Positions 8,001 to 30,969 of a stretch of 43,638 nt of DNA are shown here, one piece after another (within the stretch, counting starts at the first letter, position 1; each line of letters begins with the position of its first letter). The translations under genes and the position numbers were made by a program. Source of the DNA: Methanocalculus chunghsingensis (lineage in GTDB: Archaea; Halobacteriota; Methanomicrobia; Methanomicrobiales; Methanocorpusculaceae); the NCBI RefSeq assembly GCF_018132105.1, contig NZ_JWHL01000017.1:1-43638 (forward strand), given 5' to 3'. Below the pieces are notes generated by a model. It was not told the origin of the DNA, ran no database searches, and worked only from the letters and a program-made list of their open reading frames with translations.

Positions 8001-8199
8001 TGAAGAGCATGGGACAAATGTACTCTTCTTCGTCCGGGAATTTTCGAAGAACGGCGGTATCACCCAGCCGTTCATCTTCCTTGGGACTGCCCGGTACATC
8101 TCCCATGAGGGGAGCAGGCCGATGAGCATCCTATGGGAGCTTGATCGCCCGATGCCACCGGGGCTGTTTCAGAAGGCGAATAAGGTGATGGTGGAGTAG
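5068..8199 (+). CDS. PLD-like / superfamily II helicase / DUF3427 protein
   Basis: This 1043-residue multidomain protein has an N-terminal phospholipase D-like nuclease region. Its HxK motif is RLHAKTYAF (His about 219), followed by the GSANIS strand. A superfamily II helicase core follows, with Walker A TGTGKT at about 343-348, the DEAH-box variant VDEFHH at about 436-441, TATPERMDG, and motif VI QQLGRGLRL at about 638-646. The C-terminal 200 residues match the layout of DUF3427. Proteins with this order (COG3886 plus COG1061) are widespread, sporadic and often found in bacterial and archaeal defence or mobile regions. The combination suggests ATP-driven recognition and cutting of nucleic acid. 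Only one HxK motif is visible, so the nuclease would act as a dimer or be non-catalytic. It stands alone, with no methylase or other defence partner next to it. Confidence 0.88.
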   Translation: MDPAPGIYEQLIYEHLSSKLNQLDREGNSIQREKIKKFDSQAILSQYLHKTILRTLRIADEEHIPLDRQVAFCNEIIRLLSSQLNYTDLELCTITSDAELLLAVQQGGRTGDRVLTRPRTSIAQSSLFTGSPNEPSLANEFKQEIRSSDRIDLLISFIKWSGIRLIIDDLRDFVQRGNTLRIITTSYMGATDLKAIEELAKLPNTEIRISYDTDRTRLHAKTYAFHRKTGFSTAYIGSANISNPAMTSGLEWNVKVTEQDSVDIIRKIETTFESYWHSPEFVLYRHEKRDRLRHALSKETSKEPTLYPVFDIRPYYFQKEILERLQAERQLHGNYRNLIVAATGTGKTVISAFDYKNQIPDDRQYPRLLFVAHREEILRQSLQVFRGILRDPNFGDLMVGGNRPSEIDHLFVSIQSFNSTNLPEMTTPDYYDMIIVDEFHHAAAPSYQGLLSYYTPQILVGLTATPERMDGLEILRYFGGKITAEIRLAEAINRKLLAPFHYFGVTDVVDLDGVSWKQGRYDARELSKLYTASSQRVDHIIQSIERYMTDIRDIIGLGFCVSIEHAEYMAASFQKAGIPAAALHSQSSREERHSVQKRLVTGEITFIFIVDLYNEGVDIPEVNTILFLRPTESLTVFLQQLGRGLRLMEGKECLTVLDFVGRHNTRYRFGEKLLALLSPGGMNLQAQVQSSAYQLPKGCHLHLEKVAQERILENIKANLLNKRYLIDRIKGFEMETGKPLSFRRFLEEHTLTPDDIYAKGTFTRLASEAGVYPEKYLNETLFSKVAARRLSTIDSPLVIDCIRSFLQDPVAFTDRPLTPIDEKIIALFYYSLYDRQITDPTLSLQEIFSDILDHREIADEIDDLLGYTYDHIEFLPEPIAKEFESPLELHCTYTRDQAFAALGHHTLTERAAAGMREGVVYLRDQKIDIFFITLQKTEELYSPTTMYNDYAVTDTLFHWQSQNATSETSPVGRRYIEHEEHGTNVLFFVREFSKNGGITQPFIFLGTARYISHEGSRPMSILWELDRPMPPGLFQKANKVMVE

Positions 8200-9977: not shown

Positions 9978-10154
9978 TTATTTCGACACTTTTTTCCTGG
10001 CTTTTCCAACCCCCTCCTGGGCCTTCCCTTCGACCTGCTCAATCTTCCCTTTGATCTGTTCTTTTTTACTCCCCGTCATTTTTCCTACTTCTTCGCGAAC
10101 CTTTCCTTTTACCTGTTTGCCTTTTCCAACAACTTCGTCCTTATTTTTTCCCAT
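9978..10154 (-). CDS. CsbD-like stress protein (58 aa), copy 1
   Basis: ATG at 10154 follows AGGAAGGGGAG. The 58-residue product is Lys/Glu/Gly-rich with the repeated GKGKQVKGK and VREEVGKMTG pattern of the CsbD family (known in Bacillus as a sigma-B general stress gene). It is probably a small, hydrophilic, partly helical cytoplasmic protein. A second copy of identical length lies at 31900-32076 and shares most residues. Both sit near Gln-rich small proteins. Function beyond stress association is unknown. Confidence 0.85.
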   Translation of the reverse strand: MGKNKDEVVGKGKQVKGKVREEVGKMTGSKKEQIKGKIEQVEGKAQEGVGKARKKVSK

Positions 10155-13059: not shown

Positions 13060-13332
13060 ATGAACGGGAACGAGGGAGATGCCGGGATGGGGCGGGAGAG
13101 GACGACCCGCGACCTCGTCCTCGAGACGCATCAGGATGTGAAATGGATCTGCCGGGCTCTTGAGCGGATCGAGGCAGAGAACAGGGAGTATGCCGCCCGG
13201 CTCCGGGCAGTTGAGGAGTGGCGTTCCGAGAAACGGGGCGAGGAGCGGCGGGCTTCGGCTGTGGGGACGGTGGCAGGTGGTGTTGTTGGCGGGGCGGTGG
13301 CAGTGATTGTGAAGATTCTGGGCGGGGGGTGA
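13060..13332 (+). CDS. small coiled-coil protein with C-terminal membrane segment (90 aa)
   Basis: AGGAGG lies nine bases before the ATG. Residues about 15-65 form a charged helix (CRALERIEAENREYAARLRA, then EEWRSEKRGEERRA). The last 23 residues are a glycine/alanine/valine-rich hydrophobic helix (VAGGVVGGAVAVIVKILGGG). This layout resembles XhlA-like phage accessory proteins and other tail-anchored small proteins, but no family can be claimed. Its stop codon lies inside the fossil CRISPR repeat at 13329-13365, so it sits at the scar of a lost array. Confidence 0.6.
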   Translation: MNGNEGDAGMGRERTTRDLVLETHQDVKWICRALERIEAENREYAARLRAVEEWRSEKRGEERRASAVGTVAGGVVGGAVAVIVKILGGG

Positions 13333-13440
13333 ACAGGCTGGTTTTCGTGGAACCCCGTCTGATAAAATCAAATGTCTTCCTTCCCCCGGATAATCTTTTC
13401 TCTCCGATCCGTTTGTTCAGGGTAGGAAACCTGAACTGCC
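13329..13440 (-). CRISPR. fossil CRISPR leader with one degenerate repeat
   Basis: TTTTCGTGGAACCCC at 13342-13356 is identical to the core of the array repeat, and GTCTGATAA follows where the intact repeat has TTCTGCTAC. The next 75 bp align with the array 1 leader (18283 onward): TCAAAT, TTCC, CGGATAATC against CAGATAACC, CTCCGATCC against ATCCGCTCC, and TCAGGGTA. The leader TATA box (TATATAAACC in array 1) has become AGGAAACC here. The orientation matches array 1. It looks like a dead third locus whose other repeats were lost. Confidence 0.8.
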
Positions 13441-13470: not shown

Positions 13471-13779
13471 TCAGAGGATGACAAACGCCCTCTTCCGGTA
13501 CTCATCTTCATTAAAGGCTTTCCCAACAACAACCTTCTTCGTCAGGCAGGTATCGCAGAGGGTGAAGATCAGGATGCTGTCCGTCTCTGTCCGTTCATCA
13601 GCTGGAAAATCATTGAACAGCTCGGTGATCCGGAGTCCGACCCGTTCAACCTGCCGGGTCGTCAGCTCGCCGAAGAAGATGCTCTTCTGGAACCGGGCAA
13701 GCCCGTGATCCAGGCAGGCATCCGCGATCCGCTGCCGGAGAGGCGTGGAGGTGATGTCATAGAGTACCCAGGCAAACAT
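13471..13779 (-). CDS. cas2: CRISPR integrase subunit Cas2
   Basis: This 102-residue Cas2 has the N-terminal ferredoxin-like strand FAWVLYDIT with the conserved Asp (residue 8). RFQKSIFFGEL follows, and a strand SILIFTLCDTC lies in the C-terminal half. I start it at ATG 13779, which has GAGGG upstream and leaves an 11-base gap after cas1; an ATG at 13800 would overlap cas1. Cas2 forms the core of the Cas1-Cas2 spacer integration complex. No cas4 is visible. Confidence 0.92.
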   Translation of the reverse strand: MFAWVLYDITSTPLRQRIADACLDHGLARFQKSIFFGELTTRQVERVGLRITELFNDFPADERTETDSILIFTLCDTCLTKKVVVGKAFNEDEYRKRAFVIL

Positions 13780-13790
13780 GATGATCCCTC

Positions 13791-14780
13791 TTATGACCAC
13801 TGGCGGGTAAACGGCGTGTAGGGACGTCCTTCGTTGATGCTATGGACTGCCTCACGCATATTGTCGAGGATCACGCTGGAGAAGGTCGTCTCCCTCCCAT
13901 CGATCTCCTGTTCCAGGGTAAGCCTCCCTACAACCTCCGCGATGATCACCTTCCGGGCATCCTGTGTCAGGTATCCCCGTTCATCGCACCCGTCAGATCG
14001 GAGGCGTCCCCGGACCGCGAGCGTAATGATCCCCCGATCAACCACCGGTTGCCGGAACTGCTCAATCACGTCATAGACAAACGGCGTCTTCCCATACCGA
14101 TCCGCATGGAGGATGCCGATACCGGGATCGAGTCCGGCAAGAAGGCAGGACTTCTCCACCTCGTTATAGAGGATCCCATAGCCATAGTTCAGGGCTGCAT
14201 TGAAGACATCCTCGGCAGGCCGGTGCGTCCGGGTTCCATGATAGCTATCCGGCGGGAGGACGTGGGCGAGTGCTTGAAAATACCGCCGCGACGCCTCCCC
14301 TTCAATACCCCGGAGGAGCGGGGCATCATCAGGGAGTATCCCCGATGGCGGCACTCCGGCAGCGGCAACCCGGATCGTCTCCCCTTCCGAGACGAGATCA
14401 GGGCGATCCCGGCGTCTCCCGAGTGCCTGGATGAGCGAGCCCATATTAAAGAGCTTGGCACGGATGATGGATGCGATGAAACTGTACCCCTCCGGACTAC
14501 TGGAGAAGAGCACCTGGTTCTTCCTGGTTGCAGCCGTCCCGGTCACGGAACAGGGGACAAGCCGGCAGACCGGTCTTCCGTCCCGCCCGATGACCGCGAT
14601 GTCGGTACCGTTCCCTGCCGCCAGTGCCATCGCCCCGGTTGTCACCGTTGCCGCATCCGAGAGGAGGATCTGCCGGAGATCAGATGCGGGGAACTCCCGG
14701 ATCTCTCCCTCGGACTCGATGACAAAACGGTTCTGCTTCCGCCGTATAACAGCCCCATATCCGTTAATGACGCAGTACAT
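13791..14780 (-). CDS. cas1: CRISPR integrase Cas1
   Basis: The product is 329 residues if started at ATG 14780 (MYCVINGYG); a TTG three codons earlier is an alternative. The metal-binding residues of the family are visible: Glu in GIEGEA (about 160), His in GILHADRYG (about 225) and acidic residues in YDVIEQFR (Asp 237, Glu 240). Cas1 catalyses insertion of new spacers at the leader end. It is transcribed in the same direction as array 1 and lies beyond its leader-distal end, in an operon with cas2. Direct repeats upstream (14809-14848) may control it. Confidence 0.95.
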   Translation of the reverse strand: MYCVINGYGAVIRRKQNRFVIESEGEIREFPASDLRQILLSDAATVTTGAMALAAGNGTDIAVIGRDGRPVCRLVPCSVTGTAATRKNQVLFSSSPEGYSFIASIIRAKLFNMGSLIQALGRRRDRPDLVSEGETIRVAAAGVPPSGILPDDAPLLRGIEGEASRRYFQALAHVLPPDSYHGTRTHRPAEDVFNAALNYGYGILYNEVEKSCLLAGLDPGIGILHADRYGKTPFVYDVIEQFRQPVVDRGIITLAVRGRLRSDGCDERGYLTQDARKVIIAEVVGRLTLEQEIDGRETTFSSVILDNMREAVHSINEGRPYTPFTRQWS

Positions 14781-14808
14781 CCTACTCAACCACCCGGCAG
14801 ATCGCCTG

Positions 14809-14905: not shown

Positions 14906-17900
14906 GTGGGGAGCCTTGTTTTCGTGGAACCCCTTCTGCTACAAAATTGTATCAAGAATTGAACGATGAAGCTAAAGAGCTTGTTGCAATCCTTGTTTTC
15001 GTGGAACGCCTTCTGCTACGTTGCTTTGCCATTCTAACAAGTCGCGCCAAAAAAAAGTTGCAATCCTTGTTTTCGTGGAACCCCTTCTGCTACTACCTTG
15101 ACACAGAAAACAACCTGACTTGTCCAATTTGTTGCAATCCTTGTTTTCGTGGAACCCCTTCTGCTACCATGGTTCCGGAACCCTATGTTTACGACCAAGG
15201 GTCACGGTTGCAATCCTTGTTTTCGTGGAACCCCTTCTGCTACGACGAGACACCCGCGTACTCTGTCCTATATGCGATGTTGCAATCCTTGTTTTCGTGG
15301 AACCCCTTCTGCTACAGCGAGGAACTCTTCTAATTTTTGGAAGTGAAAAAAATGTTGCAATCCTTGTTTTCGTGGAACCCCTTCTGCTACCACTTGATAC
15401 ACTTCTCCGTGAGTTCAGACCCTGCAGTTGCAATCCTTGTTTTCGTGGAACCCCTTCTGCTACTATACGCACGCACGCACACCCCGGTCTACACGTTGCA
15501 ATCCTTGTTTTCGTGGAACCCCTTCTGCTACGAGGTAGAGCGGGCAGGCAGGCAGGCAGGGCGACAGCGTTGCAATCCTTGTTTTCGTGGAACCCCTTCT
15601 GCTACGACCTAGTCTGCCCCGTATGCGGTAAGACAATACGTTGCAATCCTTGTTTTCGTGGAACCCCTTCTGCTACGCTTGGTACGTCGTCGCGGAGACC
15701 AGTCGGGGCGAAGGTTGCAATCCTTGTTTTCGTGGAACCCCTTCTGCTACGTTAATTTAGTAGGATATACAAGTCACAAAAGGATGTAGTTGCAATCCTT
15801 GTTTTCGTGGAACCCCTTCTGCTACATAAGAAGTTCACTGTATTACTCGAGAAGGAGATCTCCGTTGCAATCCTTGTTTTCGTGGAACCCCTTCTGCTAC
15901 GACCATTAAACGCATATTTCCCACTCCGAACAATTCTTGTTGCAATCCTTGTTTTCGTGGAACCCCTTCTGCTACATGGATGAGGCACACGAATACGAGC
16001 CAATCCAGAAATAGTTGCAATCCTTGTTTTCGTGGAACCCCTTCTGCTACCGATGGAAACTATGATCATCTCCTGAAAACCTGTATGGTTGCAATCCTTG
16101 TTTTCGTGGAACCCCTTCTGCTACAGTATGCGGCAAGACAATACAGGTCGTTAGTACTACGTTGCAATCCTTGTTTTCGTGGAACCCCTTCTGCTACGGG
16201 TATCAGCTAAAAATATCGATTCATTGGTTAACAAGTTGCAATCCTTGTTTTCGTGGAACCCCTTCTGCTACTGAATTATGAAACAGATGGATGAGATTAT
16301 AGAAACTGTAGTTGCAATCCTTGTTTTCGTGGAACCCCTTCTGCTACTCCATAACAACGGAGGGTGGGTATAATGGAGAACCAGTTGCAATCCTTGTTTT
16401 CGTGGAACCCCTTCTGCTACGAGGTTGACCAGAAGGTCGCCGATAAGTCAACTGCATTAGTTGCAATCCTTGTTTTCGTGGAACCCCTTCTGCTACATCT
16501 TCAAATGGTGAAATATTACGCTTCTGGCGTAGTTGCAATCCTTGTTTTCGTGGAACCCCTTCTGCTACGAGTGTCTTGGTATAGACGAAGGCAGAGTTCT
16601 TCATAAACTGTTGCAATCCTTGTTTTCGTGGAACCCCTTCTGCTACGAAAAAGCAATCCTTACATCAGAAGGCACCATCTTGTTGCAATCCTTGTTTTCG
16701 TGGAACCCCTTCTGCTACTGATAAAAAATGGAACCATTAAAAGTAATATTAAAAGAGTTGCAATCCTTGTTTTCGTGGAACCCCTTCTGCTACGCGGGAG
16801 GATGGACAACAATGGAACCATTAAAAGTACTGTTGCAATCCTTGTTTTCGTGGAACCCCTTCTGCTACCGTACAGCCCAGCAGCCACCCATTACCCATAA
16901 CAGAGGTGTTGCAATCCTTGTTTTCGTGGAACCCCTTCTGCTACTTGTAGGAGTCGTAGACCCCTACGGTTTCGCATTCTGTTGCAATCCTTGTTTTCGT
17001 GGAACCCCTTCTGCTACTACCGACCAGCTGCCGGCGTCGGTGAACGTGCCCTGGGTGTTGCAATCCTTGTTTTCGTGGAACCCCTTCTGCTACGATACTC
17101 ATGTCCGATAACATCGAACATAGCTATGACGGTTGCAATCCTTGTTTTCGTGGAACCCCTTCTGCTACGCGGGGCTCCTGCGCCCGTAGTAATTGATCTT
17201 GAGGCTGTTGCAATCCTTGTTTTCGTGGAACCCCTTCTGCTACCAAATCTCAGCGATGCGGATCTCAGCGGTGCAAATCTGTTGCAATCCTTGTTTTCGT
17301 GGAACCCCTTCTGCTACGATTGACCTCCTCCAACCCATTGCCGTCCTCCTCGGCATGTTGCAATCCTTGTTTTCGTGGAACCCCTTCTGCTACACCCCCT
17401 CGCCGGGGTGGTTGCCGGGGGATGCTGAACTGGTTGCAATCCTTGTTTTCGTGGAACCCCTTCTGCTACGTGGATTCAAGGAACCAGAGTCGAACGAATA
17501 CTGTGGTTGCAATCCTTGTTTTCGTGGAACCCCTTCTGCTACATCGGTGAAGGGATGATCACTCTCACCGACGCCCCCGAGTTGCAATCCTTGTTTTCGT
17601 GGAACCCCTTCTGCTACCCCGGGTTGCCTGGTCAGCGCAGTTCGCTGACCAAGGTTGCAATCCTTGTTTTCGTGGAACCCCTTCTGCTACTATCGAACAA
17701 AATAAAACTATGCTCAGAGTATGTCTATGTTGCAATCCTTGTTTTCGTGGAACCCCTTCTGCTACAAGTATGAAGATTTTTTTGAAGTGTTCATTTCTCC
17801 GTTGCAATCCTTGTTTTCGTGGAACCCCTTCTGCTACAATTATCCAATTTGTCCAATTTTCCCCAAAAACCAGTTGCAATCCTTGTTTTCGTGGAACCCC

Positions 17901-18282
17901 TTCTGCTACCGCAATGACAACGGAAGAATTACAGCAGGAGAACGAGTCGTTGCAATCCTTGTTTTCGTGGAACCCCTTCTGCTACCATACACGGAGATGT
18001 GATTTGATGAATTATGATACGGTTGCAATCCTTGTTTTCGTGGAACCCCTTCTGCTACGCGAGATATGGATCTGGCCATCCCAGACCCACATACTGTTGC
18101 AATCCTTGTTTTCGTGGAACCCCTTCTGCTACGCGGTTCATCCCATGATATCATAGGGTGATATGGAGATGTTGCAATCCTTGTTTTCGTGGAACCCCTT
18201 CTGCTACTATATACTCTCGGCGTGGTTCGTTCATGGTTATTAGGTGTTGCAATCCTTGTTTTCGTGGAACCCCTTCTGCTAC
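14906..18282 (-). CRISPR. CRISPR array 1: 46 repeats, 45 spacers
   Basis: The 37-bp repeat begins GTAGCAGAAGG and ends ATTGCAAC when read on the minus strand, the transcribed strand according to the leader at 18283-18455. Spacers are mostly 34-40 nt. All repeats from 14983 on end in C at the spacer junction. The two leader-distal repeats are decayed: 14906-14942 differs in the ATTGCAAC end, and 14983-15019 has a C to G change in the CCCC tract. The final eight bases resemble the AUUGAAAC-type 5' handle of type I-B/III crRNAs. The repeat has no stop codon on either strand in several frames, so long spurious reading frames cross the array. Confidence 0.98.
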
Positions 18283-18455
18283 AGGGTCAAATTTGTTCCT
18301 TTTCCCAGATAACCCTTTCTATCCGCTCCTTTTTGTCAGGGTATATAAACCGGACGACCCCCTCCGATCACCTTTTCCGCATTTTTGCAAAATTCCAAAC
18401 TTATTTTACTATTATTTTTCAATTTAATCGATGTAAATCAAATCTCCGAGGTTTT
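18283..18455 (-). promoter_or_regulatory. leader and promoter of CRISPR array 1
   Basis: These 173 bp match the leader of array 2 (28270-28441, reverse orientation) with only scattered differences, ending after CTCCGAGGTTTT. The TATA box TATATAAA at 18342-18349 (read on the minus strand as TTTATATA) predicts transcription starting near 18315, about 30 bases before the first repeat. The distal part is AT-rich. Confidence 0.88.
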
Positions 18456-18460
18456 CCGGC

Positions 18461-18554
18461 ACTCTGCAGGCATTGCAACCCTGCCGTGCCCGAATCCGGA
18501 GGTAAATGGGAAAAAGAGGCCGGGGGATGGGCCAACCACGACATCCATCCCCTG
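18461..18554. repeat. dispersed intergenic repeat, copy B, with inverted repeat
   Basis: This copy matches 12861-12953 over about 90 bp. GGGGATGG at 18523-18530 pairs with CCATCCCC at 18545-18552, a perfect 8-bp stem. It lies between the array 1 leader and the end of the lipoprotein gene at 18571, and no gene is seen. Confidence 0.7.
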
Positions 18555-19737: not shown

Positions 19738-22206
19738 ATGTCAGAAATCAATCGAAATGTTTACCGTTGCATACACCAATCAGGAGATGTGGAGCCTGAT
19801 ATTCAATCACTGGTGTATGCAGCCCTCCTCCATGATATCGGTAAGTTCTACCAGAGGACAGGGGCAAAGCATGCAGAGGAATATGAGGAACTCACGGAGA
19901 AGGATTATGGATACAGCGGAGCCCATGCCAAATGGTCGGCTGACCTGATCCGAAGAGTGTTTCATGATAAACAGCTTGAAGACCTCGTTCTTCATCACCA
20001 TCAACCGCAGGCCTCGGCATATCGGAACCTTGCAGAGATCCTCCAGGAGGCAGATCATATCTCTGCCGCCATCGACCGGAGCAGGCGGGATGAGAAGGGT
20101 GATCCAAAGAGAGAGCATCTCTGGAGTATATTCTCCGGGATATCTCTTGGTGGAACTCAGCAGGAGGTGAACGGATCAGACTGGCATCACAGGCTTCTTC
20201 CATTCACCCTCACCAGGGAGGCGTTCCCGACCAGGGAACAGGATCCATACCACTGGAAGAACGATGTTCCGTACTCCCGGCTCTGGGCAGAGTTTTATCG
20301 TGAGCTCTCAGAGGCAGGGAGGAGGCCGCACCCGACGACCCTCCTCGCACTCCTCCGTAAGTATACCTCATCGATCCCCTCGGCAGCGTATGTCGATTAC
20401 CCGGACATTCCCCTCTATGATCATGCGAAGACGACGGCGGCACTCGCCACCTGCATCGCCGCCGGTGAGGGAAAATCACCGTACCTGCTTGTACAGGGCG
20501 ATCTCTCCGGCATCCAGCGGTTCATCTTCGATGTCAGGACCCCGGAGGCGGCACGGAAAGGGATGGCAAAGCGGCTCCGGGGGCGATCATTTTGGATCTC
20601 TCTCCTGGCCGATGCGATCGTCCATGAGATCATCGAGGCGGCCGGGGTATCTGAAGCGAATATCCTCTGGAACACCGGTGGAAACTTCCTCCTCCTCCTC
20701 CCAGGGAACAGCCGGGTGGAGGAGGCGATTGGCCGGGTCCGGAGAAGTGTCAATACCGGCCTCCTCCGGGAGACCGACGGGCGGCTCTACTGTGCATTCG
20801 GGAGCCTTGCCTGCAACCGGGGTGAGATCGAGGACTTTGCAGACTGCCTTGAGCGGCTGCACCTCATCACCGGTCGGCAGAAGCTCAGGAAGTTCTCTGA
20901 ATGCCGGATCAGCAGCACCCCCACCGGGGAAGAGACCGATCTCGAGGGCTTCTGCCCCATCTGCGAACACCGCAAAAGTGCGGGGATCTGTCCCACCTGT
21001 ACGATGCATGAAGAGCTTGGCCAGCGGCTTGCCCATGCATCCTGTTTCAGCAGGGGAAGTGGCCTCCGGTTCGGCTTTGCGGAGTTTGGCCTCTTGGCAC
21101 GGTATGATCTCACCGAGAAGCCGTTTGCAGAACCCCCGGAGTTCACCGCCACCATAAACAGTACCGACTTCCTCAGGACCGGGTCACCGGCGATGAGCTT
21201 CATCCTCCTTGGGAATACGGTTCCGCTGCACAAGAGGCGGATCCTGACCTTCGGGGAGCTTGCAGAGGTCTCGCAGGGGGATCCGAAGCTTGGTATCCTG
21301 AAAGCGGATGTCGATAATCTCGGCAAGATCTTTGCTCTTGGAATCGGGGAGAGGAAGAAGCGGTCGATATCGCGTATCTATACCCTCTCCTCAGGGTTTG
21401 AGCACTTCTTCAGCGGGTACCTCAATACCCTCTGCCGGACGTTTGGGATCTATACCCATCTCTGCGAAGAATGCAGAAACGGTGCCCGCGAGATCTCCCT
21501 CCACCATGATGAGCGGGAGAGGGAGGACGACGAGGCCGTCCGGACGAGCTGGACCGCCTATGAAAAAGAGACCGCATGCCCCTCATGCGAACACCACTTC
21601 GTCCCGACCCTCTACATCACCTTCTCGGGGGGGGACGATCTCCTGATCATCGGCCCCTATGACCATATCATCAGGTTTGCCGGACTCCTCCAGTCGGAGT
21701 TTGAAGCATATACCTGCAACAACCCCTGGATATCACTCTCTGCCGGGGTGGTCGCAGTGCCGCCAAGGATGCCGCTTGCCCATGCAGTGGCGATGGCAGA
21801 AGATCATCTTGAGGAGGCGAAACGACAGGGGAAGAGCCGGGTAGCCATCTTCGGCGAATGCCTCCCATGGAAGGACAGAACCCTTGAGAAGGGATATGCC
21901 TCCCTCCTCAGCCAGGGGGAGGCGCTTGAGGCCGCCCTCACCGGGAAGGCAGTCAGCCGGAGCTTCATCCATGCCACCCATGCCATCTGGGAGGATGCAT
22001 TCGCCGATCTCGATGATATTGATGATGTCTTGGAGAAGGCGGCGAAACGGGAGGCACGGCGACGGTATCTCCCGTACCTGAAGTACCAGATCGCACGCAA
22101 TGTACCGAAGAATGAGAAGAAACGGATCGAGGATCTCATCCTTCCCTCCTTTGGCTGGGCGAGGTTTCCGATCACATGGACAGTTATGAGAACCAGGAGG
22201 AAGTAG
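19738..22206 (+). CDS. cas10: type III-A Cas10/Csm1
   Basis: This 822-residue protein is the large subunit of the Csm complex. The N-terminal HD nuclease motif is LLHDIGKFYQR (His-Asp at residues 32-33). Zinc-binding cysteines appear in CPICEHRKSAGICPTC (about 406-421), with more in CEECRNG and CPSCEHH. The palm cyclase motif SGGDDLL (GGDD at about 631-634) is intact. By family knowledge the HD domain cuts single-stranded DNA, and the palm makes cyclic oligoadenylate when target RNA is bound. The downstream CARF proteins fit the use of that signal. csm2 starts immediately after the stop codon. Confidence 0.96.
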   Translation: MSEINRNVYRCIHQSGDVEPDIQSLVYAALLHDIGKFYQRTGAKHAEEYEELTEKDYGYSGAHAKWSADLIRRVFHDKQLEDLVLHHHQPQASAYRNLAEILQEADHISAAIDRSRRDEKGDPKREHLWSIFSGISLGGTQQEVNGSDWHHRLLPFTLTREAFPTREQDPYHWKNDVPYSRLWAEFYRELSEAGRRPHPTTLLALLRKYTSSIPSAAYVDYPDIPLYDHAKTTAALATCIAAGEGKSPYLLVQGDLSGIQRFIFDVRTPEAARKGMAKRLRGRSFWISLLADAIVHEIIEAAGVSEANILWNTGGNFLLLLPGNSRVEEAIGRVRRSVNTGLLRETDGRLYCAFGSLACNRGEIEDFADCLERLHLITGRQKLRKFSECRISSTPTGEETDLEGFCPICEHRKSAGICPTCTMHEELGQRLAHASCFSRGSGLRFGFAEFGLLARYDLTEKPFAEPPEFTATINSTDFLRTGSPAMSFILLGNTVPLHKRRILTFGELAEVSQGDPKLGILKADVDNLGKIFALGIGERKKRSISRIYTLSSGFEHFFSGYLNTLCRTFGIYTHLCEECRNGAREISLHHDEREREDDEAVRTSWTAYEKETACPSCEHHFVPTLYITFSGGDDLLIIGPYDHIIRFAGLLQSEFEAYTCNNPWISLSAGVVAVPPRMPLAHAVAMAEDHLEEAKRQGKSRVAIFGECLPWKDRTLEKGYASLLSQGEALEAALTGKAVSRSFIHATHAIWEDAFADLDDIDDVLEKAAKREARRRYLPYLKYQIARNVPKNEKKRIEDLILPSFGWARFPITWTVMRTRRK

Positions 22207-22686
22207 ATGTCATATAATAATTTGTATGGTAAGGGCCAGGGTCAGAACCGCGGGGGATCATACGCCGGCGGTGGAAGTCAGGAGTTTATAAAGAAGATAC
22301 AGGAAGCCAGAAACCTCTCGGGTATCACCGTCGAGGAGGTCGCCCGGGAGGATGGGATCGCCGAGTCGGCTGCAAAGGCGTTTGGAAAGAACCTCAAGAC
22401 GACACAGCTGAGGAAGTTCTTCGATCAGGCAAAGTCGATCGAGGCGGGGCTGAAAGAGGACGGATGGGAGTCGGTGAGTGCGGATTTTGCAATGCTCCGG
22501 CCGATCCTCGCCTATGCGAAAGGGAGGAGGCTGATCCCGGATGACTTCTATCTCTTCATCTCATCCTGCATGGCAAAGGTCCTTGCACCGGATAACGACA
22601 TGGAGATGACGAAGAAGAACTACATCAGGTTCATCCAGATCCTCGAGTCAGTGGTGGCGTACCACAAATATCACTATGGAGAATAG
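22207..22686 (+). CDS. csm2: Csm2 small subunit
   Basis: The 159-residue product has a Gly/Asn/Gln-rich N-terminal tail followed by a helical bundle (TTQLRKFFDQAKSIEAG, then LRPILAYAKGRRLIPDDFYL and a final YIRFIQILESVVAYHKYHYG). The layout is as expected for Csm2, which lines the crRNA-target duplex. The ATG directly follows the cas10 TAG, so translation is probably coupled. It is slightly longer than usual because of the tail. Confidence 0.93.
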   Translation: MSYNNLYGKGQGQNRGGSYAGGGSQEFIKKIQEARNLSGITVEEVAREDGIAESAAKAFGKNLKTTQLRKFFDQAKSIEAGLKEDGWESVSADFAMLRPILAYAKGRRLIPDDFYLFISSCMAKVLAPDNDMEMTKKNYIRFIQILESVVAYHKYHYGE

Positions 22687-22697
22687 GAGCGAGAGAT

Positions 22698-23432
22698 ATG
22701 ATAGAATTCATCGAAAATTACCGTATATCAGGAAAGATCATCTGCCAGACCGGTCTGCATATCGGGGGCTCATCAGATACACTCGGAATCGGGGGATCGG
22801 ACAGCCCCGTCATCCTTGACCGCATACAGAAGGTCCCGATCATCCCCGGCTCATCCCTGAAAGGGAAGATGCGATCAGCACTTGAGCTGAAGTATTCAGG
22901 CCTCTGGCTTGACAAGAGTGAGGGAAAGGTCCATACCTGCAAAGAACCCGGCTGCAACCTCTGTACAACGTTTGGCCGTGGCGCAACAGAGCGGGTCATG
23001 GCCGGCCCGACCCGCCTGATCGTCAGGGATGCGATGCCGGATGCAGTGACGAAGGAGGCCTGGAAGGACAAGGACGGCATCTCCCATGGGACCGAGATCA
23101 AGGGGGAGAACTTCCTCAACCGGATCACCTCCATGGCGACGCCCCGGTTCATCGAGCGTGTCCCCGCAGGCTCCGCCTTTGACTTTGAGATGATCTTTAC
23201 CATCTACTCTCCCGAGGATCAGGACCGGCTGAAGCTGGTGCTTGAGGCGATGAGCATCCTCGAGGACAGCTATCTTGGCGGGAGCGGATCGAGGGGCTAC
23301 GGAAAGATCGCCTTTGCCGATATCGTGATTGCACGGAAGGATCCGGATTCGTACCGTGAGGGGAGAGACTGGGAGCCGCTGACGAAGGCCGAGGGGGAGA
23401 CGACGGCACGCGGAATCCTCGCATCCCTCTGA
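22698..23432 (+). CDS. csm3: Csm3 backbone RNase
   Basis: This 244-residue RAMP protein has HIGGSSDTLGIGGSDSPVI near the N terminus. The Asp at residue 35 corresponds to the catalytic Asp33 of Streptococcus thermophilus Csm3, so backbone RNA cleavage at 6-nt intervals is expected. PGSSLKGKMR at 50-59 and the glycine-rich loop GGSGSRGYGK near 194-203 are family features. CKEPGCNLC (about 75-83) may bind zinc. It lies 11 bases after csm2. Confidence 0.96.
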   Translation: MIEFIENYRISGKIICQTGLHIGGSSDTLGIGGSDSPVILDRIQKVPIIPGSSLKGKMRSALELKYSGLWLDKSEGKVHTCKEPGCNLCTTFGRGATERVMAGPTRLIVRDAMPDAVTKEAWKDKDGISHGTEIKGENFLNRITSMATPRFIERVPAGSAFDFEMIFTIYSPEDQDRLKLVLEAMSILEDSYLGGSGSRGYGKIAFADIVIARKDPDSYREGRDWEPLTKAEGETTARGILASL

Positions 23433-23448
23433 TATATGGAGCCGGGAT

Positions 23449-24390
23449 ATGCGTACCGTTTACATAACACCCACCTCGGCCTTTCCCCGGACGCTGCCGT
23501 CAAATACGCTCTTTGGGGCGATCTGCTCGGCGATGGCGGAGCTTGGGGGGCCGGTCGGGGATCTGGTCGCCGCATTTGAAGAGGATCCCCCGTTCCTCCT
23601 CACATCGGCGTTCCCCTGGTTTGGGGAGGAGGAGAAGGTGCATCTCCTCCCTGCCCCGATCCTCCCTCCGGAGAAACTCCCCGGAGAAGCACTCTTTGAT
23701 GCCGCAAAGAAGCTCAGGAAGGTCTCGTACCTCCAGAGCGGGATATTTGCCTCGCTGGTTGAGGGGCGGCTCTCAGATGACGAGATACTCCGGGATCTGG
23801 ACCGGGGCGACGGGAAGTACCGGATCGGATCGGGGATGCTGTACGAGAAGAAGCAGGATCACCACTTTGAGATCAGCCGATCCGAGATCCCGCATAACCG
23901 GATCAACCGCCTCTCGGTCGCCTCCGAAGCCTTCTTCGCATCGGAAGGATTCAGGTTCTCCAATGCAGGATTATACTTCCTGATCGACTTCAAAGAGAAG
24001 GCATGGGAGAATGAGGTGCTGGCGGCACTCCGTCTCCTTGCAGACCGGGGTTTTGGTCCCAAAGTCTCAAGCGGCCAGGGCGCCTGCTCCATCTCCTTTG
24101 GAGATACCGATATCCTCCCCACATCTACGGGAGAGCGGATCGTCACCCTCTCCCGCTATCTCCCCGACGACTTCGATCTTCTCGGCGAGGATGCCTTCTA
24201 CAACCTCGTCAGGATCCGGGGGAGGAGTGCCGACGGCGTGATGAAACGGTCGGTGATGATGCTCGGTGAAGGGTCGGTCTTCCCTGATACCGGGGACGAT
24301 GTGTACGGCGGGATCGCCCGTGTCCGGGACGATCCCCCGGTCGTTGAGTACGGGTATGCCTTCCCGATCCGTTTCAGGAGTGCAGCATGA
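23449..24390 (+). CDS. csm4: Csm4 (crRNA handle-binding RAMP)
   Basis: This 313-residue RAMP protein starts with an N-terminal strand MRTVYITPTSAFPRTLPSNT and the LFGAICSAMAELGG helix. It has a glycine-rich loop DRGFGPKVSSGQGACSISFG at about 200-219. Csm4 caps the complex, binds the 5' crRNA handle and contacts Cas10. Its last four bases (ATGA) overlap the start of csm5, which shows tight translational coupling. Confidence 0.92.
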   Translation: MRTVYITPTSAFPRTLPSNTLFGAICSAMAELGGPVGDLVAAFEEDPPFLLTSAFPWFGEEEKVHLLPAPILPPEKLPGEALFDAAKKLRKVSYLQSGIFASLVEGRLSDDEILRDLDRGDGKYRIGSGMLYEKKQDHHFEISRSEIPHNRINRLSVASEAFFASEGFRFSNAGLYFLIDFKEKAWENEVLAALRLLADRGFGPKVSSGQGACSISFGDTDILPTSTGERIVTLSRYLPDDFDLLGEDAFYNLVRIRGRSADGVMKRSVMMLGEGSVFPDTGDDVYGGIARVRDDPPVVEYGYAFPIRFRSAA

Positions 24391-25547
24391 GGGTTGAGCT
24401 GAAGACAGTAACACCGGTCCATGTCGGATCCGGTGGAAAGTACGGAGGAGCCGAGATATTCAGGGTGAGGGAAGGGTATGCCCGGACCGGGATTCGTGAT
24501 GTCGTCTCCCTCCTTGAGGGCAGGGCGTATGAGGACTTCCTCTATGAAGTGGAAGAGCCGGGGTTCTCGCTTCAGAAGTTTATGGAGCGGCATCCGCTCT
24601 CGCCACCGGCGCGATATACCCTGAAATCATCCATTCCACATCCGCCAGGTGAGGTTCGGGAGATCATCAGAACCGGATTTGATATCCCGTACATCCCGGG
24701 ATCGACGGTGAAAGGGGCGATCCGGACGGCATTGCTATGGAAGGCATGCAGGGATGACCCCTCGTTCCCCCCGGAACGGCTCTATTCCCGTAATAAACGG
24801 ATGATAGGGAAGGAAATCTTCGAGGGGATCCTCTCAACAAACAGCAGAAGGTACGATCCCAAGTATGATCTCCTCCGGTTCCTTGAGGTCTCGGATTTCA
24901 TGCCGGTGAAACATTTCCTCTATCTGGAAGAGTTCGGGACGTACTCCATGTCACGGAACGGCATTATGGCGCCCAAACCATTCACCATCCCCTGTGAGAC
25001 CCTCTTTGCCCGCCTGGAGGGAACGATCCGGCTCTCCCCGGAGATCGAGGCGGCGGCAGGCCACCGGGATCTCTCGCTGCTTGAAGGCAAGCTCCCGCTG
25101 CTTGGGCTGAAAAAGAGCGATATCAGGGGACTCTCCGATCCGTTGGTCCTGCAGGCGGCAGAAGAGAAGATGACCGCACATCTCCGCTCGGTGATGCGGC
25201 AGTTCATCGAGGCGGCACTCCTCCATGATCTCCGTCTTGTGAGCGGTTCGGGAGCCCCTTCGCCACTGAGTACCGAGATCCAGACGATGCAGAAGAAGCA
25301 TGCCGGGATGGATCTCCTTCGGGTCGGGTTTTCTATCGGGACGACCTACCAGACAGTGATGGATCTCATCGAGGAGAAGGATCCCGATCTCGCATCGGCG
25401 ATAATTACGGATATGAAACTGGGAAGATATCCCCGCTCATATGACGGGGAAGCACTGGATCCCCCGTATCCAAAGAGTATTGAGTTTATTCGGACGAATG
25501 GAGAACTGCTGATGCCGGGGTGGGTGGAATGGTTACCCTCTTCATGA
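24387..25547 (+). CDS. csm5: Csm5 (3' end RAMP)
   Basis: The 386-residue product opens with LKTVTPVHVGSGGKYGG and has PGSTVKGAIR at about 104-113, both characteristic of Csm5. Csm5 caps the 3' end of the complex and takes part in crRNA trimming. It overlaps csm4 by four bases, and the following CARF-HEPN gene by 19. Confidence 0.94.
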   Translation: MRVELKTVTPVHVGSGGKYGGAEIFRVREGYARTGIRDVVSLLEGRAYEDFLYEVEEPGFSLQKFMERHPLSPPARYTLKSSIPHPPGEVREIIRTGFDIPYIPGSTVKGAIRTALLWKACRDDPSFPPERLYSRNKRMIGKEIFEGILSTNSRRYDPKYDLLRFLEVSDFMPVKHFLYLEEFGTYSMSRNGIMAPKPFTIPCETLFARLEGTIRLSPEIEAAAGHRDLSLLEGKLPLLGLKKSDIRGLSDPLVLQAAEEKMTAHLRSVMRQFIEAALLHDLRLVSGSGAPSPLSTEIQTMQKKHAGMDLLRVGFSIGTTYQTVMDLIEEKDPDLASAIITDMKLGRYPRSYDGEALDPPYPKSIEFIRTNGELLMPGWVEWLPSS

Positions 25548-26731
25548 CCGTCGGTACCGGCTCAGGCCCGGACAGAGAGGAGCGGATGCGCAACCTCGCC
25601 CATGGCCTCGCCCATGGGATCCACTATCACCGGCCGGAAGAGGTCATCTTCTTCGGGTCTGCCGAGAGCGAACCGATGGTTCCTCTCATCCGTGACTGCC
25701 TGAAGATCAATCGAGGGATGGATCTCCCCCCGGTCACCTGGATTCAGCTTCGGAATATCGACTCCTTCTCCGACTGCTTTGAGCAGATCAGCGACGAGAT
25801 CAAAAGAAGGCCGGATGAGGATATCAGGATCGATTATACCTCCGGGACCAAGACGATGACGATGTCGGCGGCGATCGCCTCGATGCTCCACAGGAAGGAG
25901 CTGACGGTCATCAGTGGGCGACGGGGAGAGAACGGGCTCGTCGGCCAGGGTACCGAGACGATAACCCAGCAGTCACTCTATCTTGCCTATAACGATATCC
26001 TCCGTGAGACGGCAAATGCAGAGTTCAATGCCTACCGGTTTGAGTCCGCAAAGGCAACAATGAGGAAGATGGTTGCAGTCGATGACAAAAACCACCTCAT
26101 GCAGATCTTTGATGCTTACAGCCTCTGGGATCGCTTTGATCATAAGGGGGCTGCCGGTATCCTTGCAGGGAGCTCCGACACCCGGTTTTCAGTGAATAAG
26201 GGTTTTATCAAGCAACTGGTCGAAACAGACGGGCTTCCATATAAATACAGGATGATCCTTGCGGACCTCCTGAATAATGCAGGCCGCAGGATTGAAGAAG
26301 GGAAGTACGATGATGCAACCGGCCGCCTGTACCGGGCCGTGGAGCTGATCACCCAGATCCGCCTCCTCGAGTACGATCTCGATGATATCAATGGGTCGAT
26401 CCGGCTTGAGAAGCTGAAGGGGAAGGTGGATCGCGAGTATTTTGCCTACTGCGAACCGAAGGCAGATGGTGAGAGGAGGCTCAGGATCGGTGTCCGGGAG
26501 AAGTTCCATCTCCTCCAGGCCCTCGGATGGACACGGGCACGAACCTGTTATGAAGCTCTCGCAGACGATCTCCAGCAGCGGAACAGCTCCATCCTCGCTC
26601 ATGGGATGACCCCTGTCACAAGGGAGAGTGCCATGACGTTTTATGGGAAGGTTCATGATCTCGCACTCCAGGCATGTGGTCCAAATGAGATGGAGCCGCT
26701 CCTCAAACGAGCAGTATTTACGAAATTATGA
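25529..26731 (+). CDS. CARF-HEPN ribonuclease of the Cas02710/Csm6-like family
   Basis: I place the start at ATG 25529 (MVTLFMTVGTGSG); GTG 25520 and ATG 25544 are alternatives. The N-terminal CARF domain has the strand-loop TVGTGSGPD and the ligand-pocket motif DYTSGTKTMTMSA (about 111-123). The C-terminal part carries the HEPN signature R-X6-H in QRNSSILAHG (Arg about 351, His about 358). CARF binds cyclic oligoadenylate from Cas10, and HEPN cuts RNA non-specifically, so this would be the accessory effector of the system. Its ATGA overlap with cas6 and overlap with csm5 place it inside the main operon. The family name rests on motif layout; a related Csx-type is possible. Confidence 0.85.
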   Translation: MVTLFMTVGTGSGPDREERMRNLAHGLAHGIHYHRPEEVIFFGSAESEPMVPLIRDCLKINRGMDLPPVTWIQLRNIDSFSDCFEQISDEIKRRPDEDIRIDYTSGTKTMTMSAAIASMLHRKELTVISGRRGENGLVGQGTETITQQSLYLAYNDILRETANAEFNAYRFESAKATMRKMVAVDDKNHLMQIFDAYSLWDRFDHKGAAGILAGSSDTRFSVNKGFIKQLVETDGLPYKYRMILADLLNNAGRRIEEGKYDDATGRLYRAVELITQIRLLEYDLDDINGSIRLEKLKGKVDREYFAYCEPKADGERRLRIGVREKFHLLQALGWTRARTCYEALADDLQQRNSSILAHGMTPVTRESAMTFYGKVHDLALQACGPNEMEPLLKRAVFTKL

Positions 26732-27399
26732 CACACAGAACTCTCTACCTGGTTATGGAGACGGATCGGCCTGTCACCGAAAGCGGAACACAGCTCCGGG
26801 GATGTATCGCCGGGCAGTATCCGGATCGCCCCCTCCTGCACCATCATGCCCCCCAGCTTATCTATACCTACCCCCGGGTACAGTACCGGGTGATCGAAGG
26901 GACGCCGTCTGTCCTTGGGATCGATGACGGGGCAGACGAGCTCCGTGCCATCGTCGGGGATCTGCATGAGCTGACACTTGGGAACAGCCGGTACCGGATT
27001 ACCCGGAAGGCGACCTATGAGATGGAGGGGGCTATCCGCCCGATCCGTGATCTCCGGTCGTACCGGTTTACCAGCCCCTGGATCGCCCTCAGCACAAAAA
27101 ATTATGAGATCTACCAGAATGCCGGGGGCTGGCGCGAGAGGAAGGAACTGCTCAACAGGATCCTGATCGGTAATATCCTCTCGATGGCGAAAGGGCTTGA
27201 TATTGTCATCTCACGGGAGATCCGGGTCAGAACACATCTTGATCCGGTGGCAGTCCGGTATAAAGGCATCGGGATGACCGGGTTCACCGGGGAGTTCCAG
27301 ACGAATGTTATCATCCCGGAGTTCTTTGCACTCGGAAAAGGGGTATCTCAGGGGTTTGGCACCGTCATCCCCGATCGGTCTGCCTCCCCAGAAGGATAG
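26728..27399 (+). CDS. cas6: Cas6 crRNA endonuclease (Cas6b type)
   Basis: The 223-residue product has an N-terminal LRGCIAGQYPDRPLLHHHAP with a YPRVQYRVI strand, as in Cas6b, and a C-terminal glycine-rich loop FALGKGVSQGFGTV. HHH near residue 37-39 may include the general base. Cas6 cuts the repeat to release crRNAs with an 8-nt handle and would serve both arrays, since their repeats are the same. It overlaps the preceding gene by ATGA, and converges on the CARF gene with a 35-bp overlap of coding ends. Confidence 0.9.
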   Translation: MTHRTLYLVMETDRPVTESGTQLRGCIAGQYPDRPLLHHHAPQLIYTYPRVQYRVIEGTPSVLGIDDGADELRAIVGDLHELTLGNSRYRITRKATYEMEGAIRPIRDLRSYRFTSPWIALSTKNYEIYQNAGGWRERKELLNRILIGNILSMAKGLDIVISREIRVRTHLDPVAVRYKGIGMTGFTGEFQTNVIIPEFFALGKGVSQGFGTVIPDRSASPEG

Positions 27400-28141
27400 A
27401 GAGGAACTTCTCCCCATACGGGGTGAGAACGGATCCGCCCCCTGTCTTCTTCTCAAGTACCCCGTGCCGGATGAGGAGGGCTTCGTCCTGGGGGGCGAGC
27501 CGCTCACCGCTCCCGAGGCATGCCCTGATGAGGTAGCCGATATGATCTGCGGGGAAGGGGAGCGTCGGTATCCTGATGATCTCATAGCCTGTCCGGGGCG
27601 GGAAGAGGATCCGATCGAATTCCTCACGATGCTCTTCATAGAGGGCGAATCCCTCCTCCCGTGACTCGATATCCGCAAACCGGTTGATCTCACCCCGGTA
27701 CCGCTCAAGGAGTTCGTTCATATATCTGATATCAGGATTGACGACCGAGAATACGCCGTCTGCTCCGAGGATCTGCCCAAGGAGTGTCAGGACAACGGAC
27801 ATATTCTTCCTCCCGCCGGTGATGTTGAGGTAGATGGTATCACACTGGTGGGTGTCACGCTCCTCCCGGAAGGCCCGTGTCGCTTCAGACATGAACCGGA
27901 GCGTATCATCCTGGGTGGCGACATCGTCAAAGGGGAGGATGACCGGGTGGATCCGGAGCCAGGGATATCTGAGGGAGAGACCTGCATCCAGGAACCGGGT
28001 TCCGGCGAGGACATCGCGATCCCGGGTGACAAGAAGGACAACATCGGATATCGGCTCCCCGATACCGTCTATAAATGAGCTGACGGCAGGGGGGCTCATT
28101 CCGACCGGGGCAATAACTGCGGTCTTCATAATGCTCTGCAT
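27365..28141 (-). CDS. second CARF-domain protein (Csx/ring nuclease or regulator)
   Basis: The start at ATG 28141 (MQSIMKTAVIAPVG) has GGTGGAGAG upstream; 28129 and 28192 are alternatives. The 258-residue product has a CARF fold: IAPVGMSPPAVSSFIDG at the N terminus, the strand VVLLVTRDRDV, and the pocket motif YLNITGGRKNMSVVLTLLGQ near 125-144. The C-terminal 80 residues end in a helix-turn-helix-like segment (DEALLIRHGVLEKKTGGGSV). No HEPN R-X4-6-H motif or PD-ExK motif is evident. It may degrade cyclic oligoadenylate (ring nuclease) or act as a signal-dependent transcription factor. It lies between cas6 and array 2, transcribed away from the array 2 leader. Confidence 0.8.
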   Translation of the reverse strand: MQSIMKTAVIAPVGMSPPAVSSFIDGIGEPISDVVLLVTRDRDVLAGTRFLDAGLSLRYPWLRIHPVILPFDDVATQDDTLRFMSEATRAFREERDTHQCDTIYLNITGGRKNMSVVLTLLGQILGADGVFSVVNPDIRYMNELLERYRGEINRFADIESREEGFALYEEHREEFDRILFPPRTGYEIIRIPTLPFPADHIGYLIRACLGSGERLAPQDEALLIRHGVLEKKTGGGSVLTPYGEKFLSILLGRQTDRG

Positions 28142-28269
28142 CAGTCTCTCCACCTCAATCCTTTTGAATATTACCAAAGGACCGCCTCTCATCTTGCTCC
28201 CTCCCGAGGCGGAGAGATGGATGTGGGGATGGGGGAGGGGATGATATGGAAAACTACGGAATGGGTATG

Positions 28270-28441
28270 AAAACCTCGGAGATTTGATTTAAACCGATTA
28301 AATTGAAAAATAATAGCAAAATGAGTTTGAAATTTTGCAAAAATGCGGAAAAGGTGATCGGAGGGGGTCGTCCGGTTTATATACCCTGACAAAAAGGAGC
28401 GAATAGAAAGGGTTATCTGGGAAAAGAAACAAATTTGACCC
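28270..28441 (+). promoter_or_regulatory. leader and promoter of CRISPR array 2
   Basis: These 172 bp are nearly identical to the array 1 leader in reverse orientation. The TATA box TTTATATA at 28376-28383 predicts transcription starting near 28407, about 35 bases before the first repeat. The homology ends at AAAACCTCGG near 28270, close to the start of the divergent CARF gene. Confidence 0.88.
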
Positions 28442-30930
28442 GTAGCAGAAGGGGTTCCACGAAAACAAGGATTGCAATTCCATCTCCCAGCTGTCCCATG
28501 CGGTGATTGTGGTGTAGCAGAAGGGGTTCCACGAAAACAAGGATTGCAATCGCACATCTCCGTCTACACTCTTCACACTCAGAAAAATGTAGCAGAAGGG
28601 GTTCCACGAAAACAAGGATTGCAATACCCAGCCGGGAGGCTGTCCTGAGTGATCGACTTCACCCTGTCTGGTAGCAGAAGGGGTTCCACGAAAACAAGGA
28701 TTGCAATTCCCGCGAGTGATCTCCGCGAGAAGTAACGCGGTAACGGTAGCAGAAGGGGTTCCACGAAAACAAGGATTGCAATCCTCTGAAGAGGCGAATT
28801 GCCTGAGATCCATATATCGTAGCAGAAGGGGTTCCACGAAAACAAGGATTGCAATGGGTTCGGGTGTGTTCTGATCTGTCGCTCTCCGGCAGTGTAGCAG
28901 AAGGGGTTCCACGAAAACAAGGATTGCAATGCGAATTGCCTGAGATCCATAGATCTTCTCCTATACAGTAGCAGAAGGGGTTCCACGAAAACAAGGATTG
29001 CAATATATTGGTTATGTCTTTTATGCAATGCGTTAAGATACCGTAGCAGAAGGGGTTCCACGAAAACAAGGATTGCAATAGTTTCTTCTCCGGCGATCCT
29101 CATCATTGTTTCTAAGTAGCAGAAGGGGTTCCACGAAAACAAGGATTGCAAGGAAGTATTCTTGATGTATATCCTTTCAGTTGTTGTGTAGCAGAAGGGG
29201 TTCCACGAAAACAAGGATTGCAAGTCTACATGCGGGCCACCAATACCCAAAACTAAGGTATAGTAGCAGAAGGGGTTCCACGAAAACAAGGATTGCAAGA
29301 TATGGAAAGCCACTTTAACGAGTGGCTAAAAATGATGTAGCAGAAGGGGTTCCACGAAAACAAGGATTGCAAGAGTAAGGAGTACGCCGTATTAGCGTTC
29401 CTCTCATGGCAGTAGCAGAAGGGGTTCCACGAAAACAAGGATTGCAAGTTTTATACATAATTCAACTAATGAAGAGATTGTTCCATGTAGCAGAAGGGGT
29501 TCCACGAAAACAAGGATTGCAAGACGCTGAACGTTGCCCTAAGGGCGTACCGATCAGAGGTAGCAGAAGGGGTTCCACGAAAACAAGGATTGCAAGTCGA
29601 TCGATTGGTTGTCCATTTTTTTCACCTCATGGTGTAGCAGAAGGGGTTCCACGAAAACAAGGATTGCAAGGGGTATGGTTTGGCATGTAGACAAGACGGG
29701 TAGCGCAGTAGCAGAAGGGGTTCCACGAAAACAAGGATTGCAAGGCTTTCCCCTCATCATTTTTAAATTCGTATGTATCATGTAGCAGAAGGGGTTCCAC
29801 GAAAACAAGGATTGCAAGTAGACACGAAGGTTAGCGCAGTGGCGTTAGCCGTAGCGTAGCAGAAGGGGTTCCACGAAAACAAGGATTGCAAGTCCATGGC
29901 TCCCGGTGGTACGTCGCCACTCGTAACCTTGTAGCAGAAGGGGTTCCACGAAAACAAGGATTGCAAGGAAGAGGGGGGCAAATATCCCCTCAACTTCCAA
30001 CTATGTAGCAGAAGGGGTTCCACGAAAACAAGGATTGCAAGAGAGGTCAATAGAGTGGATTAAATCTGCAAGAGACACCGTAGCAGAAGGGGTTCCACGA
30101 AAACAAGGATTGCAAGAGGGCTTTTGCTCTGCATGTCTGCCCACCCGCTCTGTAGCAGAAGGGGTTCCACGAAAACAAGGATTGCAAAGAAGGTATCGTA
30201 AAGAGGATGAAGCCAAGAGAGGTGTAGCAGAAGGGGTTCCACGAAAACAAGGATTGCAAAACGGCTGACTTGTCAGCCCTCCTGTCTGGGGACGTACGTA
30301 GCAGAAGGGGTTCCACGAAAACAAGGATTGCAAACTGTGAGGTTTTCATCCTCAAAGATTGCGTTTCTCGTAGCAGAAGGGGTTCCACGAAAACAAGGAT
30401 TGCAACCGAACACTGTTCGCTATACAGAAGTTCAGGTTCGGTTGGTGTAGCAGAAGGGGTTCCACGAAAACAAGGATTGCAACTTTTCAATCTCCATGAA
30501 CAACCCATCCGAAACCTCGTAATGTAGCAGAAGGGGTTCCACGAAAACAAGGATTGCAACCCTGATAGGTTATTTGTTCGATAAATTCCGATTCTGATGT
30601 AGCAGAAGGGGTTCCACGAAAACAAGGATTGCAACACCCCCATCACCTTCAAACTTGCTGCGACCGAGAGCCCCGTAGCAGAAGGGGTTCCACGAAAACA
30701 AGGATTGCAACCATCTTCTCGATATTCGTATGTCTTATCATAAGATGCTGTAGCAGAAGGGGTTCCACGAAAACAAGGATTGCAACATGTGCCGGAGAGC
30801 GGAATTCTCATTCGAGAGCCACGTAGCAGAAGGGGTTCCACGAAAACAAGGATTGCAACCCCTATAGTGTGTCTTTTTCATGTGTCGTTCCTCTGAGTAG
30901 CAGAAGTACTTCCACGAAAAGGATTACAAT
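28442..30930 (+). CRISPR. CRISPR array 2: 33 intact repeats plus one decayed repeat
   Basis: The repeat is the same 36-bp core as in array 1 (GTAGCAGAAGG to ATTGCAA), followed by a variable 37th base. Repeats 1-9 end in T, 10-23 in G, 24-26 in A and 27-33 in C. The first repeat is 28442-28477 and the last intact one 30823-30858. The 34th, at 30897-30930, has TACT in place of the GGGT tract and lacks two bases. Spacers are mainly 36-39 nt, with one of 46 (28625-28670). Transcription is rightward from the leader at 28270-28441. Confidence 0.98.
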
Positions 30931-30969
30931 GGTTCAGTGTTGTATGATCGACATTCGGAAAACAGTCAT

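Follow-up and report, generated by a model that had tools for sequence, protein, structure and literature searches.

Two inverted CRISPR arrays in the window (the whole stretch of DNA that was analysed, 43,638 nt in length) raise the question of whether their spacers come from a preferred strand, and from preferred sites, of the genes that they target. The initial annotation had read several array 1 spacers as gene starts, had taken the corresponding crRNAs to be complementary to mRNA, and had suggested that start regions might be favoured by transcription-linked capture or by selection. All six spacers that it cited are present, with the letters quoted from them, at the positions that it gave, and its total of 78 spacers is correct.

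The locus is a type III-A CRISPR-Cas system with Csm1-5, Cas6, a Csm6-like protein, Cas1, Cas2 and two inverted arrays (Table 1). Cas10/Csm1 and Csm2-Csm5 (all five above NCBIfam cut-offs) are encoded in one block at 19738-25547; alongside them are Cas6, a CARF effector and, left of array 1, Cas1-Cas2. Archaeal housekeeping genes (S24e, Kae1/Bud32 and eIF2-gamma) are found in the same window, and kinship makes a methanogen host plausible. Near the CRISPR locus, a 1043-aa protein (5068-8199) with PLD-like, SF2 helicase and DUF3427 domains is possibly another defence protein, and an ORF beside array 2 (31203-31760) encodes a glutamine/alanine-rich, repetitive product without a Pfam match. Two repeated elements are present as well: a 137-nt stretch that occurs twice, 22 kb apart with 74% identity, flanking the CRISPR region (9991-10127 and 31913-32049), and a 94-nt unit present three times in tandem at 1324-1605, the further copies matching the first at 85% and 61%.

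Table 1. Components of the type III-A locus and spacers discussed in the text, with positions in the window.
Feature	Position	Strand	Remarks
Cas2	13471..13800	-	PF09827 6.8e-14
Cas1	13791..14789	-	PF01867 4.2e-66; RT domain not found
CRISPR array 1	14906..18282	-	45 spacers; 37-nt repeat; minus-strand transcription
Array 1 leader	18283..18480 (extent approximate)	-	near-identical, inverted copy adjoins array 2
Cas10/Csm1	19738..22206	+	TIGR02578 1.5e-161
Csm2	22207..22686	+	TIGR01870 2.9e-18; PF03750 3.2e-22
Csm3	22698..23432	+	TIGR02582 2.2e-66
Csm4	23449..24390	+	TIGR01903 7.5e-52
Csm5	24387..25547	+	TIGR01899 4.6e-20
Csm6-like CARF-HEPN effector	25520..26731	+	TIGR02710 2.3e-49; PF09670 3.8e-31
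Cas6	26728..27399	+	Cas6b_C 1.9e-39; Cas6b_N 1.3e-23
Csx14 / Crn1-like CARF protein	27365..28192	-	TIGR03642 2.5e-29; PF09623
Array 2 leader	28250..28441 (extent approximate)	+	near-inverse of array 1 leader
CRISPR array 2	28442..30933	+	33 spacers; same repeat as array 1; plus-strand transcription
Spacer A1_31	15976..16013	+	MDEAHEYEPIQK on target strand; start or internal; start posterior 0.70
Spacer A1_26	16348..16383	+	strong start-like target-strand context GGAGGGTGGGTATA-ATG; start posterior 0.99
Spacer A1_21	16719..16756	+	ambiguous; start posterior 0.41
Spacer A1_20	16794..16831	+	start-like; start posterior 0.98; 19 nt around ATG common with A1_21
Spacer A1_14	17244..17280	+	30/37 to L243; pentapeptide repeats NLSDADLSGAN, PF00805 2.2e-25; internal
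Spacer A1_10	17543..17580	+	29/38 to L245; start-like motif, yet gene-internal match
Spacer A1_05	17910..17948	+	target strand coding, LLR 5.5; start or internal Met; start posterior 0.56
Spacer A1_04	17986..18021	+	start-like; start posterior 0.89
Spacer A2_10	29153..29187	-	29/35 to L238; IS200-like transposase, PF01797 6.5e-41; internal

Both arrays are built on a common 37-nt repeat, lie in opposite orientation and together hold 45 + 33 = 78 spacers. Transcription of array 1 from the minus strand, as proposed in the initial annotation, is borne out by the 3' part of its repeat, which reads ...GGATTGCAAC on that strand, by a leader nearly inverse to that of array 2, and by degenerate repeats at the leader-distal ends (14906-14942 in array 1, 30897-30933 in array 2). 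A lone degenerate repeat copy with 10 mismatches lies outside the arrays, just past cas2 (13329-13365). From leader to tail, the last base of the array 2 repeat changes in blocks (T in nine repeats, G in 14, A in three and C in the rest), the remaining 36 positions of the intact repeats being invariant; this last base is uniform in array 1 and in nearly all of 30 other arrays examined. It looks as if the leader-proximal repeat of array 2 underwent three successive changes at that one base, each new version being propagated in turn, perhaps through integration slipping by one base.

Phages, plasmids, the host's own genome, class and family genomes and viral contigs yielded no virus or plasmid protospacer that was convincing over its full length. 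The 50,697 phage records gave a single, spurious match, and the array 1 spacers met weak bacterial matches in 72,556 plasmid records. In the own genome, array 1 had no self-targets and array 2 had weak matches only, outside the arrays. None emerged from 232 class genomes, in a search flooded by repeat matches where two candidates per genome were scored and misses are possible. Comparison of all 78 spacers by BLAST with 147 loci (157 minus 10 own-genome loci), including relatives of methanogen-virus terminases, gave matches hardly above those of shuffled spacers. Degenerate patterns for the start-like, DEAH-like and zinc-ribbon spacers found nothing in viral contigs beyond two in which CPVCGKTI is encoded in an unrelated context. 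Eleven candidate places were examined in 33 family genomes, and a coherent protein-level match was obtained only for A2_10, A1_10 and A1_14. In all three of these matches in relatives the target strand is the coding one and the match is gene-internal; for A2_10 the target strand encodes QQLKGYTSRIL, identical in the match, at about codon 79 of 133. The remaining candidates were set aside: a match of A2_01 to an ABC1 kinase gene (crRNA strand, 28/35) is weak and probably due to chance, the family match of A1_15 is weak, and those of A1_31, A2_08 and two further ones of A1_14 are not coherent. Because the targets were not found, strand was read from the codon signal of the spacers themselves.

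For this reading, a codon model with frequencies per GC bin was trained on 1,044 genes (from five annotated methanogen-virus records and IMG/VR loci), and each spacer was scored for coding on the target strand versus the crRNA strand; on 2,088 held-out 37-nt windows its accuracy was about 76%. The strand complementary to the crRNA was estimated to be coding in a fraction of 0.74 of the 78 spacers (95% CI 0.55-0.91, Wilcoxon P 0.012), an estimate that weighs score strength, the target strand being favoured in 45/78 spacers by simple count. An SD-5mer followed by ATG was found in a ratio of 7:1 on target and crRNA strand in the same 78 spacers. Most spacers are thus oriented such that the crRNA complements the mRNA of the source gene, as the codon signal supports and as is already known for type III systems. 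The proposal had been made for array 1, where the sense fraction of 0.70 (0.43-0.94) is not significant alone; the bias extends beyond array 1, as array 2 shows it at least equally (0.78, 0.51-0.99). There is no trend of sense bias with spacer age, taken as distance from the leader (Spearman P 0.67).

The same reading was applied to related genomes, with 269 spacers from III-A-type-repeat arrays of 12 hosts and 529 spacers from control arrays with other repeats in 10 hosts, after 130 spacers had been dropped for unreadable array orientation. The control label derives from the repeat type; Cas3 is encoded on the same stretch for most control arrays, and no Cmr2 scored above its cut-off. The sense fraction is 0.89 (0.81-0.94) in the III-A-type arrays of relatives versus 0.50 (0.42-0.57) in the controls, and a bootstrap over hosts gave 0.76-0.99 versus 0.43-0.57. 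Three hosts of the III-A-type set (G095, G115 and G151, 19 spacers) are without a Csm1 hit, and the fraction minus these is 0.88 (0.80-0.94, n=250). One genome, G055, holds both kinds, with 0.81 (0.59-0.97) in its III-type arrays and 0.38 (0.22-0.56) in its type I array. In two III-A hosts the bias is not clear: the same-genus relative G003 (0.49, 0.09-0.88, 12 spacers) and G208 (0.56, 0.29-0.80, 23 spacers). Among the other III-A arrays the SD-5mer plus ATG motif falls on target and crRNA strand in a ratio of 21:1, as against 20:18 for the controls. The possibility that there is no real bias, with a few start-like spacers picked by eye and the remainder due to chance, agrees with array 1 alone, where only 24/45 coding calls (LLR > 0) fall on the target strand, and with motif counts that match expectation; array 2, the pooled 78 spacers and the 269 related III-A spacers against 529 controls already disfavour it, and we regard it as very unlikely. 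The orientation bias of type III can hence be read from spacers alone, without a matching virus, and among related archaea this reading draws a sharp line between III-A and type I-like arrays (89% vs 50%). Its use lies in the fact that known targets are lacking for most type III spacers.

Orientation and gene-start preference are separate matters, and the latter fares less well. In five methanogen viruses an annotated start is contained in about 5-6% of 37-nt sense windows. Against GC-matched sense windows of the same viruses, an SD-4mer followed by ATG was counted on the target strand in 6/45 array 1 spacers with 5.5 expected, and in 11/78 spacers of both arrays with 9.8 expected (P 0.40); for the SD-5mer the figures are 7/78 and 3.9 (P 0.086). 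Start-like motifs are therefore no more frequent than in such windows, and the idea that they are unusual is not upheld. Sums over both strands, which are independent of strand bias, were likewise similar between III-A and control spacers (SD-4mer 68/347 vs 120/529, P 0.37; SD-5mer 30/347 vs 38/529, P 0.46), and a GC-adjusted, strand-invariant start-site score gave III-A versus control odds ratios of 1.01-1.27 with upper limits of 1.45-2.13, all intervals including 1. A mixture fitted to PWM scores placed 0.18 (0.11-0.27) of the sense spacers of all III-A arrays across a start, with a base of 0.05 and controls at 0.072 (0.035-0.12); this points to a start excess, but the fit is poor in the low-score bins, and no confirmation came from the strand-invariant comparison. 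Hairpins are not enriched in the spacers either (stem of at least 6 in 7/78 vs 5.1 expected, P 0.24).

A true gene-start preference in this host, by which III-A adaptation or selection would favour the start-codon region in mRNA-binding orientation, draws its main support from a generative model with three window classes (internal, start-spanning and non-coding), which returned 0.037 for a true value of 0.043. For the 78 spacers this model estimated a start-spanning fraction of 0.206 (0.097-0.334) on the target strand versus about 7% expected, and none on the crRNA strand. Simulated P values for 0.206 are 0.0025 (virus windows), 0.04 (gene-dense windows) and 0.0075 (other III-A arrays), with 0/400 for controls; P 0.0067 persists for both arrays when one spacer of each overlapping pair is removed. 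Array 1 had suggested the idea of gene starts, leaving array 2 as the sole array unused in forming it, and array 2 alone reaches P values of only 0.045 (virus windows), 0.18 (gene-dense windows), 0.033 (other III-A) and 0.065 (controls), or 0.058 against III-A and 0.092 against controls after thinning. Moreover, the other III-A arrays (269 spacers) show a fraction of only 0.066 (0.018-0.119), with controls at 0.032 + 0.026, and the plain motif counts stay at expectation. A review (PMC9048733) describes III-A spacers of S. thermophilus as enriched at 10-50 bp downstream from the start codons of genomic genes, which speaks in favour; by its account, however, this enrichment concerns the encoding strand and does not directly serve defence. 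We consider such a preference rather unlikely, and the fuller claim, that III-A of this host samples or keeps viral start-codon regions at about three times chance, in mRNA-binding orientation, with crRNAs covering SD and AUG, as unlikely. What had been proposed for start regions thus survives as an excess in one model at this locus only. A modest true start excess in the two arrays of this host is possible; the preference is unproven and at most a trait of this host or of its gene-dense targets. If the hint held, spacer choice or retention in III-A would be linked to archaeal translation initiation sites.

Individual spacers illustrate the ambiguity. Among the six that had been read as starts, the reading is strong for A1_26, A1_20 and A1_04 and ambiguous for A1_31, A1_05 and A1_21. 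The translation of A1_31, M-DEAH-EYEPIQK, is presumably akin to a Walker B/DEAH motif from within an ATPase gene. In A1_10 an SD-like word precedes ATG and the motif alone would call a start, yet the match places it inside a periplasmic-binding-protein-like gene: the codons that correspond, IGEGMITLTDAP / SGEGMVTITDAF, are homologous and lie about 38 codons from the start of an ORF of 388 aa, which carries a Peripla_BP_2 domain. Two overlapping pairs, 28783-28818/28931-28967 and 16719-16756/16794-16831, have 21 and 19 nt in common, each around one ATG, which counts in favour of a start preference; they give the impression of a single gene start hit twice, in related targets, and A1_21 apparently represents the same gene start as A1_20, from a related target. 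In a post hoc count, a zinc-ribbon-like CP[IVL] stands in an open target-strand frame in 5/78 spacers (17838-17872, 17094-17131, 15606-15639, 15244-15278 and 15094-15130) vs 0.29 expected from virus sense windows, and VCGKTI is common to 16125-16160 and 15606-15639; zinc-ribbon genes may have been a recurrent target of array 1.

The two arrays are likely ordinary type III-A memory arrays with their own Cas1-Cas2 and spacers in mRNA-binding orientation, the start look stemming mostly from sense sampling. Csm complexes require RNA complementary to the crRNA. Cas1-Cas2 would take up DNA in both orientations, and the spacers retained by cells would mainly be those able to pair with transcripts, since without a target RNA Csm fires neither Cas10 nor the CARF effectors; spacers of the opposite orientation would protect nothing, and cells keeping them would lose out. 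Sense-orientation sampling of gene-dense virus genomes would then produce most of the start look, given that some 5-10% of 37-nt windows would hold a start codon and more would by chance have an SD-like word ahead of an internal ATG. Transcription-linked capture, in the form of RNA-derived acquisition by a Cas1-linked reverse transcriptase that sets the orientation, has in its favour a single RVT_1 protein encoded by the host genome; its gene lies on another contig (C13) than Cas1 (C48), Cas1 matches the Cas1 model only, no RT is fused or adjacent to it, and according to the review (PMC9048733) strand bias is absent on most genes in RT-active systems. We hold this route to be extremely improbable. 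Since Cas1 is without an accompanying RT, the simplest account is that spacers are acquired both ways and then selected, and we infer that selection and not acquisition sets the orientation, which the absent age gradient neither supports nor excludes.

In the PMC literature on gene-start spacers and strand bias, with subscription journals mostly outside, no paper was recognised as dealing with the present locus or one close to it. On average, 65% of the matches of type III spacers are to the coding strand, about 2:1 (Vink et al., 2021, PMC8482600). Their result and ours share the mRNA-complementary crRNA (74% here, 89% in the related III-A arrays), but theirs derives from mapped protospacers and ours from the coding signal of the spacers. 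In type III systems of Thermus, selection was shown experimentally to cause the strand bias (Artamonova et al., 2020, PMC7515739). These systems resemble the present one in their conventional Cas1-Cas2, no RT being fused to Cas1, and in the selected functional orientation, whereas the selection demonstrated there is deduced here. For III-A of S. thermophilus, acquisition downstream of genomic start codons proceeds without RT (Zhang et al., 2021, as relayed in the review PMC9048733). The likeness lies in III-A spacers near gene starts; the difference is that they come from the encoding strand there, while the candidates here are mRNA-binding and their enrichment is unproven.
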